Shown here piece after piece: positions 25,793 through 29,351 of a DNA stretch of 64,000 nucleotides. A program made the translations under genes and the position numbers. Source of the DNA: Haloprofundus salinisoli (GTDB lineage Archaea; Halobacteriota; Halobacteria; Halobacteriales; Haloferacaceae). The notes under the pieces were generated by a model, which did no database searches, had not been told where the DNA came from, and worked only from the letters and a program-made list of their open reading frames with translations. The stretch lies in contig NZ_CP083663.1 in assembly GCF_020097815.1 (NCBI RefSeq), positions 1,364,001-1,428,000 of the forward strand, read 5' to 3'. Every line of letters starts with the position of its first letter. The first letter of the stretch is position 1.

Positions 25793-27298
25793 GTGCGCAT
25801 CTCCACAGCCCTCCGTTCGGGATTCCGCCTCCCGGATCGTTACCCCATTGCTGTCCTGCCGTTTTACCTGCTAGCGACGAGCGTCGGCGTCGTCGCCCGC
25901 GTACCGCTGTTCGTCGGCGTCGCCATCGTCGTCGCCGTGCTCTCGTCGAGCGGCCGTCTCGGCACCTTCGCCGAGCGCATCCAACAGGTCGACTTCACCG
26001 CGTTCAGCTCCGCCGAGCCGACGGTTCCGACCGGCCTCCCCGAGGCGCTGGCGGTCGTCGTGACGCCGCTGACGGTCACCGTCTTCGGACTCGCCGCTTT
26101 GGCGTCGCTCGTGGTCGGCCTCCTCGTCGCGGGTGGCGTTCGCGCCGGCACGCTCTCAGCGGTGCTCGCCGCGATCGACGGGCGGGACCCGGCGCTCGAC
26201 GGCGTCCGCGGTGCGAGTCGACTCTGGCTGCCGTTCGTCGCCTTCTCCCTCCTCAGGGGGGTGCTGTTCGGTGGCCTCCTCGTCGTGACCGCCGTCCTCG
26301 CCACCGCGCTGCTCGCGTTCGGCCCGATGGGCGCGCTGGCGGCCGTCCTCGTCGCGCTCGCCGCCGCGTCGCTCGCCCTCGTCGTCGGTCTGTTGTTGGC
26401 GTTCACCGAACAGTCGCTCGTCGTCGACGGCGACGGACTGACCAGCGCTCTCGGCGCGAGCGTTCGGTTCCCGATTCGGCGGCCGGTCGACTTCCTGTTC
26501 TACGTGCTCGTCGCGGCGGCGGCGTTCGTCGGCAACAGCATCGTCGTCGGAACGGCCGGCCTCTTCGGTGTGACGCAGGCGGGCGCGGTGCTGTCGATAC
26601 TGCTCGTCTCGCCGATTCTCGACGGGTTCAAAACCTCGCTGTACGCCGAACGCGGTCTCGGCGAACGCGACGACGAGTACGGCACCGACAGGCCCACGCG
26701 ACGACGCCGCATCGTCGCACGTACGCGAGATGGTGTCGGCGCGCTCGGGCGGTTCGTCCTCGACCATCCGGGGTGGAATCTCGTCTCGACGCTCGTGCTG
26801 GCCGGGAGCATTCTCGCGGGCTACGCCGCGACGTCGGGGTACGGCATCCAAATCGGCGCACCGGGCGATGTCGCCGGCGTGTTCGGCGTCTTCCCGGTGG
26901 ATACGTTCGTCAACATCGCCGCGAACAACTGGCTCGTCGCCGCCGGCAGCGCGTACGGCGGCCTCGCCCTCGGCGTCCCGGCGGCGGCCAGTCTCGCGTT
27001 CAACGGACTGCTCGTCGGTTCGCTCGCCGGCATCTTCGAGTTAGTGCCGTTTCTGGCGCTCGTCGTCCCGCACGGCATCGTCGAACTGCCCGGACTGGTC
27101 GTCGCCGGTGCGCTCGGACTGCATCTCGGCCGCGTCGGGTGGCGCGCGTACCGCGGTCGGGACGACGCGGCGTCGGTGGCCGAAGCGCTCCAGCGCGCGT
27201 TCCGCGTGCTCGTCGGACTCGCCGTCGTCTTCGTCCTCGCGTCGTTCATCGAGGCGTTTCTGACGCCTCAAATCGCCGCGTTCGTCCTCGGCGGATAG
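25793..27298 (+). CDS. SpoIIM-family multi-pass membrane protein
   Basis: The 501-residue protein has many hydrophobic helices. The first part (about 1-290) is a haloarchaeal multi-helix region. From about residue 320 the sequence matches the SpoIIM/DUF95 pattern, with AANNWLVAAGSAYGGLALG, FNGLLVGSLAG and the hallmark PHGIVELPGLVVAGALGLHLG. The GTG at 25793 gives a short charged N terminus before the first helix. Membrane function is unknown; in bacteria the family takes part in envelope remodelling. Confidence 0.75.
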   Translation: MRISTALRSGFRLPDRYPIAVLPFYLLATSVGVVARVPLFVGVAIVVAVLSSSGRLGTFAERIQQVDFTAFSSAEPTVPTGLPEALAVVVTPLTVTVFGLAALASLVVGLLVAGGVRAGTLSAVLAAIDGRDPALDGVRGASRLWLPFVAFSLLRGVLFGGLLVVTAVLATALLAFGPMGALAAVLVALAAASLALVVGLLLAFTEQSLVVDGDGLTSALGASVRFPIRRPVDFLFYVLVAAAAFVGNSIVVGTAGLFGVTQAGAVLSILLVSPILDGFKTSLYAERGLGERDDEYGTDRPTRRRRIVARTRDGVGALGRFVLDHPGWNLVSTLVLAGSILAGYAATSGYGIQIGAPGDVAGVFGVFPVDTFVNIAANNWLVAAGSAYGGLALGVPAAASLAFNGLLVGSLAGIFELVPFLALVVPHGIVELPGLVVAGALGLHLGRVGWRAYRGRDDAASVAEALQRAFRVLVGLAVVFVLASFIEAFLTPQIAAFVLGG

Positions 27299-27399
27299 CG
27301 TTTCGGGCGCGACGCCTCCCGGCCGGACTGCTATCGTCGAGACACCGGTCGACTGCTATTTCGTTCGTCCATTTGTGAGCTTCTTCCTGCAACGCGGGG

Positions 27400-27593
27400 A
27401 CCTAATTTGTTAGGTGGAAGGGTTTAGTGGACGGGGCTACTCTTCAGATATGCGTAACGCGGTCGCACCAGACCACTCACAGTTCGCGTGCCAACGAACT
27501 AGCCAAGCCATGCAGTCCCGGTGCGCTGCGTTCGATGGGGCATTTGCCTCGAATTCTCTTCGGACACGCATCTCCGAGCGACGCGTCTCGTCG
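27400..27593 (+). repeat. repeat cassette copy 1
   Basis: It starts with the inverted repeat ACCTAA-TTTG-TTAGGT (27400-27415). A TTTAG TATA-like element follows (27423-27427) and then an ATG at 27450, 25 nt after it. The core CACTCACAGTTCGCGTGCCA onward is identical to copy 3 for over 50 nt. A hairpin TTCGA...TCGAA with inner GGCA/TGCC pairing spans 27531-27553. The tail has lost about 7 nt relative to copies 2 and 3. Confidence 0.8.
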
Positions 27594-27644
27594 GGACCAG
27601 TGTCCGCTCCCCTTAGGACCAGCGTCCGCTCTCGTCTGGATTAG
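27450..27644 (+). pseudogene. possible broken small ORF in repeat copy 1
   Basis: A frame opening MRNAVAPDHSQFACQRTSQA corresponds codon-for-codon to the copy 3 ORF for about 34 residues. It then diverges because of a 7-nt loss that removes the homologous stop and lets the frame run on to 64 residues through the 22-bp repeats. The TATA-like element lies 25 nt upstream. It is either a decayed paralogue or a chance frame. Confidence 0.3.
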
Positions 27645-27659
27645 CGTCCGCTCTCATCT
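27594..27659 (+). repeat. 22-bp tandem repeat, three copies
   Basis: Three head-to-tail units of 22 bp begin GGACCAG, GGACCAG and GGATTAG (at 27594, 27616 and 27638), each containing a GTCCGCTC core. They immediately follow repeat cassette copy 1. No spacers separate them, so this is not a CRISPR array. Confidence 0.75.
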
Positions 27660-27714
27660 TCGGCGGCGTCGACTACAACGGCGTTTCCGCGCCGCCGCGA
27701 CGGATCGAGACGGA

Positions 27715-27914
27715 ACCTCATTTGTATGGTACAGTCGTTTAGTAGATGGCGTCACTACGGTAATACGCGAACACGGACGCCTCGGACCCATCACAGTTCG
27801 CGTGCCAACGAACTTGCCAAAGCCATGCACTCCGGACGTGCCGTGTTTGACGAGGCACCCACCTCGTTCTCCCCCCATCCTCACAGACATCGACCGACGA
27901 GCAGTGCGTCTCGT
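27715..27914 (+). repeat. repeat cassette copy 2
   Basis: It has the same order of elements: ACC-TCATTTGTAT-GGT (27715-27730), TTTAG at 27738-27742, the core with GTTCG-CGTGCCAA-CGAAC (27796-27813), and a hairpin ACGAGG-N6-CCTCGT (27850-27867). At the position of the ATG the sequence reads ATA, and an extra A in the core (GCCAAAGCC) shifts the frame, so any ORF is broken. Confidence 0.8.
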
Positions 27915-27996
27915 AGGTCGCCGGCAGACCTAACTTGAGTTTCGCGGGGCGCCAGACCGGTCAAATTAGGAGGATTTCGTCCACAGTGATTGTAGG

Positions 27997-28193
27997 ACCT
28001 AACATGTTTGGCAGTGTCGTTTAGTGAGTAGAAGAACAAGTCGTGAATGCGAAACGCGGGCGCACCAGACCACTCACAGTTCGCGTGCCAACGAACTAGC
28101 CAAGCCATGCAGTCACGGTGCGTCGCGTTCGACGAGGCACCCGCCTCGTATCCCCCCATCCTCACAGACATCGACTGACGAGCGACGCGCTCG
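27997..28193 (+). repeat. repeat cassette copy 3
   Basis: It starts with ACCTAACATGTTTGG (27997-28011), a near-palindrome with arms CC-AACATGTT-GG. TTTAG at 28020-28024, an ATG at 28047 and the long core follow. A perfect hairpin CGAGGC-ACCC-GCCTCG lies at 28133-28148. The 3' part (CCCCCCATCCTCACAGACAT) matches copy 2. It is the only copy with a complete small ORF on the plus strand. Confidence 0.8.
28047..28178 (+). CDS. putative 43-residue protein of repeat copy 3
   Basis: The ATG lies 25 nt after the TTTA box, giving a leaderless mRNA. The frame begins MRNAGAPDHSQFACQRTSQA, has two cysteines, and ends ILTDID before TGA. Copy 1 shares the frame over about 34 codons, and several of the differences between them are synonymous (CGT/CGA, TCC/TCA, GAT/GAC). 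No known domain is recognised. The same DNA also has an open minus-strand frame, so coding is uncertain and a structured RNA is an alternative. Confidence 0.35.
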   Translation: MRNAGAPDHSQFACQRTSQAMQSRCVAFDEAPASYPPILTDID

Positions 28194-28256
28194 CCGGTCG
28201 AAGAAAGAAGAACTCGTGAGCGGTAGCCACCGAGTCGGTGTCGAGTCGGCAGGCGC

Positions 28257-29120
28257 TCAGTCGTCGTTGCTGCCGGTCTCGACGGGTGCGCCGACGAGGT
28301 TGCCCCACTCGGTCCACGAGCCGTCGTAGTTGGTGACGCTGTCGTAGCCGAGCAGTTCGTGGAGTGCGAACCACGCGATGGAGGAGCGCTCGCCGATGCG
28401 GCAGTACGCGATGACGTCCTGATTGTCGTCGACGCCCTCGGCCCCGTAGAGCTCGCGGAGTTCGTCGGCGGACTTGAACGTGCCGTCGTCGTTCACGGTG
28501 GCCGCCCACGAGATGTTGCGAGCGCCGGGGACGTGGCCGCCGCGCTGGGCGGTCTCCTGCAGTCCCGGCGGGGCGAGGATCTCGCCGGAGAACTCCTCGG
28601 GCGAGCGAACGTCGACGAGCGGCAGACCGCGGCCGATGGCCTTCTCGACGTCGTCACGGTAGGCGCGGATGGATTCGAACGGACCGCGGGCGGAGTACTC
28701 CTGCTCGGGGAACTCCGGCACCTCGTCGGTGAGCGGGTAGTCGTTGTCGACCCAGTAGTCGCGGCCGCCGTTCATCAGGCGGACGTCCTCGTGACCGTAG
28801 TACTTGAGCTGCCAGTAGGTGTAGGCGGCGAACCAGTTCGAGTTGTCGCCGTAGAGGACGACCGTGGCGTCCTCGCTGATGCCGTGGCTGCCGAGCAGTT
28901 CTTCGAAGTCGTCCTTGTCGAGGATGTCGCGGGTCGTCTGGTCCTGCAGTTGCGTCTCCCAGTTGAACCCGATCGCGCCGGGGGCGTGGCCCTCGTCGTA
29001 CGCCTCGGTGTCGACGTCGACCTCCACGAGTCGATACTCGGAGTCGTCGCTCTGGAATTCGTCGAGATGGTCTTCGACCCAGTCCGCCGAGACGAGTACG
29101 TCTTTTGCGTAATTTGCCAT
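28257..29120 (-). CDS. tssA: sulfurtransferase (two-domain rhodanese, thiosulfate type)
   Basis: The 287-residue tandem rhodanese has an inactive N-terminal domain, where the active-site loop reads YGDNSNWFAAY without cysteine. The C-terminal domain has the CRIGERSS loop with its cysteine near 240. It transfers sulfane sulfur from thiosulfate or similar donors. The ATG at 29120 fits a TTATGC box at 29147-29152 about 29 nt upstream; a longer upstream reading is unnecessary. It is divergent from the second rhodanese gene. Confidence 0.9.
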   Translation of the reverse strand: MANYAKDVLVSADWVEDHLDEFQSDDSEYRLVEVDVDTEAYDEGHAPGAIGFNWETQLQDQTTRDILDKDDFEELLGSHGISEDATVVLYGDNSNWFAAYTYWQLKYYGHEDVRLMNGGRDYWVDNDYPLTDEVPEFPEQEYSARGPFESIRAYRDDVEKAIGRGLPLVDVRSPEEFSGEILAPPGLQETAQRGGHVPGARNISWAATVNDDGTFKSADELRELYGAEGVDDNQDVIAYCRIGERSSIAWFALHELLGYDSVTNYDGSWTEWGNLVGAPVETGSNDD

Positions 29121-29351
29121 CGCGTGGATGTCTACGAACTCCGGAAGCATAACCCTCACACCCCCGGCATGTACGGCCGTTCGAGCGAAGTACCGGAGAA
29201 TTTTGCGACAATCAGCCCGACAAGTGATTTATTCCAATGTTGCGCGGCTGACGAATCGACAACTGTCGGGGGTTTTTGCTGGTAAAGGAGACGGAAGTCA
29301 CTCGTGGCCGCGACGACGGGAGCTAAATCCCGTCCGTTCGTAGCCCGTCAC

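Follow-up and report, generated by a model that had tools for sequence, protein, structure and literature searches.

Three tandem genes for a putative structured non-coding RNA in Haloprofundus and RNAs with the same hairpin tip in other haloarchaeal families

An intergenic region of Haloprofundus salinisoli probably holds three genes in tandem, each with its own promoter, that encode the same folded non-coding RNA acting in trans; the hairpin tip of this RNA would be the recognition element (we give this reading a probability of about 0.62). The region lies in a window of 64,000 nucleotides, the whole stretch of DNA that was analysed. At the sequence level, the comparisons reported below establish the gene structure, the promoter geometry, the fold, the non-coding nature and the existence, in other families, of relatives that share the tip. 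It amounts to a genuine sRNA family that had no annotation before, novel as a family and of a known general kind. Haloarchaeal sRNAs are numerous and poorly conserved, and a hairpin tip common to several families is unusual; in Haloferax volcanii, 22 of the 27 sRNAs tested were confined to that species (PMC3956466).

Locus, promoters and conservation within the genus

Three co-oriented cassettes lie in 960 bp of intergenic DNA, flanked on the left by a membrane-protein gene and on the right by a sulfurtransferase gene that converges on them. They span positions 27400–27592 (copy 1), 27715–27914 (copy 2) and 27997–28193 (copy 3), with start-to-start distances of 315 and 282 bp and a unit of about 150–195 bp, and copies 1 and 3 are 90% identical across 105 nt. 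Within each cassette, a palindrome of 14–16 bp and a TTTAGT box precede the start region; a conserved core containing two hairpins comes next, together with a stretch rich in C or U. The initial annotation had described three direct copies with a common order of elements in positions 27400–28193, and the re-examined sequence bears it out. Their resemblance is also beyond chance, as a covariance model recovers every copy in five genomes with E values from 1e-12 to 1e-19. The features of the locus are as follows.

25793–27298, plus strand: left flanking gene, membrane protein; conserved neighbour, outside the cassette system
27400–27415, plus: copy 1, palindromic operator-like element ACCTAATTTGTTAGGT (consensus of 15 copies, CCTAAYATRTTNGG)
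27423–27428, plus: copy 1, TATA-like box TTTAGT, at a fixed distance from the RNA start
27450–27552, plus: copy 1, structured RNA from the predicted start through 3' hairpin 1 (model R1, 113.8 bits)
27481–27500, plus: copy 1, apical hairpin AGTTCG-CGTGCCAA-CGAACT, core invariant
27535–27552: copy 1, 3' hairpin
27575–27590, plus: copy 1, possible second 3' hairpin CGAGCGACGCGTCTCG, weakly supported
27715–27730, plus: copy 2, palindrome ACCTCATTTGTATGGT
27738–27743, plus: copy 2, TATA-like box TTTAGT
27765–27868, plus: copy 2, structured RNA (model R1, 118.5 bits), with a closing stem, CGAACACGG/CCGTGTTTG, whose exchange against copies 1 and 3 is compensatory
27795–27814, plus: copy 2, apical hairpin, same sequence as in copy 1
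27849–27868: copy 2, 3' hairpin
27997–28012, plus: copy 3, palindrome ACCTAACATGTTTGGC
28020–28025, plus: copy 3, TATA-like box TTTAGT
28047–28149, plus: copy 3, structured RNA (model R1, 122.9 bits; MFE z −2.9)
28078–28097, plus: copy 3, apical hairpin, same sequence as in copy 1
28132–28149: copy 3, 3' hairpin
28151–28161, plus: C-rich single-stranded stretch TCCCCCCATCC after the 3' hairpin of copy 3, likewise present in copy 2; kept in most copies 2 and 3
28179–28193, no strand assigned: 3' hairpin after copy 3, with a T-rich tract following on the minus strand (28179–28210)
28257–29159, minus: right flanking gene, rhodanese-type sulfurtransferase, convergent; conserved neighbour

As in structured haloarchaeal sRNAs, each copy has its own archaeal promoter at a fixed distance. 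Across the 15 copies of five genomes, the gap between palindrome and TATA-like box is always exactly 8 nt, and the distance from the start of the box to the predicted RNA start is always exactly 27 nt. The start triplets are ATG at 27450 (copy 1), ACG at 27765 (copy 2) and ATG at 28047 (copy 3), so that the ATG previously read in copies 1 and 3 holds, while the ATA given for copy 2 does not.

The three copies keep one order and the same two flanking genes in every one of the five genomes of the genus, which include Haloprofundus marisrubri SB9. A covariance model built from the 15 copies (R1; five genomes by three copies) gave exactly three strong matches per Haloprofundus genome, with no fourth copy elsewhere in the source genome. 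The same model gave no strong match in 165 other genomes of Haloferacaceae, and a smaller, more sensitive search of 36 genera found no copies outside Haloprofundus. In several other genera (L097, L104, L105, L109) the flanking genes adjoin with a short gap and without the cassettes, thus the cluster probably arose in the Haloprofundus lineage. The triplication is older than the genus, since copy 2 forms a clade of its own, and the sequence comparison shows vertical inheritance of the three copies. Mean identity between species is 79–82% in the RNA parts and 77% in the neighbouring coding sequence, against 28–30% in the spacers, which is near the level of unrelated sequence. There is no decay, since none of the five species has lost any of the three copies.

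Fold of the RNA

A common fold plan was obtained in 14 of the 15 single-sequence predictions, copy 2 of one genome (G080) being different and the details of the inner part being variable. It consists of a closing stem of about 9 pairs, a second stem, the apical hairpin AGUUCG-CGUGCCAA-CGAACU and a separate 3' hairpin. All 15 copies have a fold energy under the dinucleotide-shuffle mean, with MFE z values from −1.1 to −4.3. The 18-nt apical core, GTTCG-CGTGCCAA-CGAAC, does not vary among the 15 copies, the last T of the hairpin being G in two copies of G080; since this core never varies, the apical hairpin alone is uninformative on pairing.

The clearest change is in the closing stem, which reads CGCGG/CCGCG in copies 1 and 3 versus CACGG/CCGUG in the copies 2 of all five genomes, a compensatory replacement of G-C by A-U. 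In the hand-made alignment 93% of the cells are paired versus 90% in shuffles, and one of 2,000 shuffles reaches 93%. On an automatic alignment, RNAalifold found only two pairs with changes on both sides. In general, the secondary structure is conserved, as in structured sRNAs, but covariation within the genus is modest, the closing stem contributing a single pair that is clearly compensatory and the 3' hairpin few.

The C-rich stretch after the 3' hairpin could possibly be the 3' end of the RNA or a seed, and the hairpin after copy 3 may double as the terminator of the convergent sulfurtransferase gene.

By inspection, some variants (CTAGCC, CTAAGCC, CTTAGCC) of the linker that follows the apical hairpin (27501–27515, 27816–27830, 28098–28112 and orthologues) track the species and not the copy. 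Linker variants common to the copies within a species suggest gene conversion.

Relatives outside the genus

Rfam 15 gave no match at E up to 5 in positions 27000–28600 and none in the whole window, and for the relatives described here it gave only sub-threshold matches, located away from the RNA. A search for the hairpin with two mismatches allowed found eleven genomes outside the genus with CAGTTCGCGTGCCAGCAAAC, and the reversed control pattern gave 2 matches in 391 genomes. In one family (f6) the matches belong to an RNA located between genes and preceded by a TATA box; its closing stem is GCGUUCGCGCC/GGUGCGAACGC, and it carries two hairpins with the same loop, UAGCU-CGCGUGCCAGC-AGCUA and GCAGUU-CGCGUGCCAGC-AAACUGC; this two-hairpin RNA is almost invariant across nine genomes (L071–L079, alignment A6). 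A relative with a single hairpin is found in a genus of Haloferacaceae (g7, L081).

A search for a shared 13-mer led to a stand-alone RNA in a further family (f4), identified as Natrialbaceae because the RNA sits on plasmids of Haloterrigena, Natronorubrum and Halostagnicola. It has a closing stem GGCUCCCG/CGGGAGCC, an inner hairpin GGAACAG/CUGUUCC with the tip UCGCGUGCCAGCA, and often a T-rich end. A covariance model of this RNA itself (R2) gave one strong match in 90 of the 101 Natrialbaceae genomes. The RNA is unannotated (L271, that is NC_013747.1 147056–147130; L272; L191–L198), and its location varies with the species between the chromosome and a secondary replicon.

The Natrialbaceae RNA (for example, that of pHTUR04 of Haloterrigena turkmenica) resembles the Haloprofundus RNA in the tip, in the combination of closing stem and apical hairpin, in being stand-alone, and in the TATA-like box about 25–30 nt upstream. 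It differs in its length of about 68 nt, its single copy, its stems and a conserved 5' internal loop ACGACCGUCAUCC, which is absent from Haloprofundus. In both RNAs the tip GCGUGCCARC is at the apex of a hairpin inside the closing stem, and between lineages the arms of this hairpin differ while the tip is constant. No single whole-RNA model covers both: R2 misses the Haloprofundus copies, and R1 misses G173, the sole Natrialbaceae genome in its sample. Common descent of the Haloprofundus, Natrialbaceae and other RNAs is likely, judging from a tip of about 13 nt in an equivalent structural position; the tip may also be shared through convergence.

The neighbours of the Natrialbaceae RNA are TFB, an HTH regulator and genes of glycosyltransferase or surface-polysaccharide type, while those recognised by eye from sequence elsewhere are a tatC-like and an ATP-pyrophosphatase-like gene in f6 and a glmS-like gene in g7. 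As the neighbouring genes differ between lineages, a shared role in cis is unlikely. Coherently, we discarded a cis-regulatory leader or riboswitch: in Haloprofundus, moreover, the downstream gene is convergent.

Two other occurrences were set apart. Judged by eye, the string TCGCGTGCCAGCA, which recurs across several other families and many Haloferacaceae, seems to fall within coding sequence. In one genus (g88; L169, L170) a different element with TCGCGTGCCAGCACCACGG is found just upstream of a conserved gene (MSRSALVGNVTAMLEDAGFVV...) and is probably unrelated.

Alternative readings and possible mode of action

The initial annotation had offered two interpretations, a duplicated and decaying small-protein gene or a structured RNA family with its own operator. 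The former, in the shape of a leaderless ORF translated from the ATG and partly decayed in copy 2, now seems barely credible. It had in its favour the ATG at the predicted start of copies 1 and 3 and the full frame of 43 codons in copy 3; this frame is there, but it is not peculiar to copy 3, since copy 1 has 64 codons and copy 2 has 57 sense codons from its ACG. Over the 15 copies the start is ATG in ten and ACG or CTG in five, the open frames range from 9 to 107 codons, and indels of 1–2 nt inside the RNA shift the frame between orthologues, so that the translated peptide switches frame. There is thus no conserved reading frame, as in other sRNAs, and what is conserved is the fold and the promoter. 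The same cassettes could be inert repeat or mobile-element debris, as might be suggested by finding three near-identical copies together in a single intergenic region and none at this site in related genera. We regard this as extremely improbable: there are no further genomic copies, the order is the same in five species, the RNA is conserved against unalignable spacers, and phage and plasmid collections gave no match. An array of protein-binding sites or cruciforms acting at the DNA level would fit the apical inverted repeat GTTCG-N8-CGAAC, invariant in the genus; it is nonetheless quite improbable, because the copies all point the same way, each at a set distance from its promoter, and because other families change the arms and keep the spacer, that is, the loop. 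Changing arms around a constant tip are the pattern of an RNA hairpin that works through its loop; a DNA site bound as a dyad would show the opposite. The other interpretation of the initial annotation is instead upheld by the promoter geometry in 15 of 15 copies, the conserved fold, the conservation of the RNA against random spacers and the relatives that carry the same loop on other stems.

A possible, although not probable, alternative is a family of base-pairing sRNAs, in which the single-stranded UAGCCAAGCCAUGCAGUC and the C-rich UCCCCCCAUCC, in place of a protein at the loop, would act by pairing with mRNAs, a mechanism that has been proposed for the Haloferax volcanii sRNA132. Most copies keep these stretches, and copy 3 (28100–28128) is complementary to the coding strand of a tyrosine recombinase gene of its own genome (L004), with 21 nt and one mismatch, or 29 nt at 90% (E 5e-4). 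Similar matches are present in G080 and G083, but at E 1e-3 neither G081 nor G082 gave one, and copy 2 diverges in the complementary stretch. Furthermore, the match covers the conserved codons THRDCMAW, which are alike in genera without the RNA (L026–L040), and the element that is invariant across families is the loop and not the single-stranded stretches. A minus-strand ORF with the tyrosine-recombinase-like peptide ATHRDCMAW was rejected: its frame is lost in copy 2, and it served only as a lead to this complementarity. sRNA132 is similar in that it has two stems joined by a pyrimidine-rich linker, but, compared by description only, it differs from the Haloprofundus RNA in being single copy and in having a sequence reported only in Haloferax, the one genus to which it is confined (PMC6560208).

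For the three tandem RNA genes, we infer transcription, action in trans and contact of the tip with a partner. In each gene, the upstream palindromic regulator site and the TATA box would drive an RNA of about 105–140 nt, ending in or after the 3' hairpin; its long closing stem would present the apical hairpin, with the tip GCGUGCCARC as recognition element. The tip would be bound by an RNA-binding protein, or by an RNP titrated by the copies, more likely than by one long antisense target. We discarded the loop as a long antisense, since, outside the RNAs, the genus shares no conserved site for its 11-nt complement GTTGGCACGCG. The absence of a conserved complement, together with a loop doubled in one lineage and a gene tripled in another, leans toward a protein or RNP partner, possibly titrated; protein binding at the loop is thus a slightly better reading than antisense pairing. 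Pairing of the tip with 23S rRNA was discarded too: in L269, which spans 23S and some flanking sequence, the rRNA strand holds no complement of the tip of at least 8 nt, only the 7-nt TGGCACG. The likeness of the tip, in the sense direction, to the 530 loop of 16S rRNA (GUGCCAGC) is probably a coincidence.

The sRNAs of the CsrB/RsmY/RsmZ type of Gammaproteobacteria titrate a protein through a loop motif repeated over several hairpins or RNA genes. The present RNAs could work in an analogous way, as one loop motif is likewise repeated in several hairpins or genes; the CsrB type has a GGA motif, whereas here the loop is GCGUGCCARC, each RNA has one or two motif hairpins, and the protein partner is only presumed. 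It is conceivable, if rather unlikely, that these RNAs form an ancient haloarchaeal regulon, in which the tip would bind and titrate an archaeal RNA-binding protein and the dosage would be set by hairpin doubling or, in Haloprofundus, by gene tripling under a dedicated regulator. Such a regulon would, to our knowledge, be the first case in archaea of a sponge of the CsrB/RsmZ design. PrrF1/PrrF2 and OmrA/OmrB are tandem duplicated sRNAs, and they too are adjacent near-identical genes with a promoter each; the Haloprofundus RNA differs from them in its three copies, its archaeal promoter and its unrelated sequence and fold. The Natrialbaceae RNA, given its presence in 90 of 101 genomes, and the triplicated Haloprofundus form offer a handle for finding the partner of a conserved archaeal sRNA.

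The palindrome, whose possible likeness to the bop UAS (Bat/bop) we do not put forward as a claim, has, as CCTAANNTRTTNGG, just one site outside the cluster that is kept in all five Haloprofundus genomes (controls gave 0–1 sites per genome). This site (L268, G000:C1:2531870-2531883; also L254, L256, L257 and L260) precedes by about 40 nt the ATG of a short ORF (MDSRNPKRR...AWLSMSASACVAVDAWR), itself conserved, that adjoins rtcB. Judging from the shared palindrome, the RNA cluster and the ORF near rtcB are a candidate two-locus regulon.
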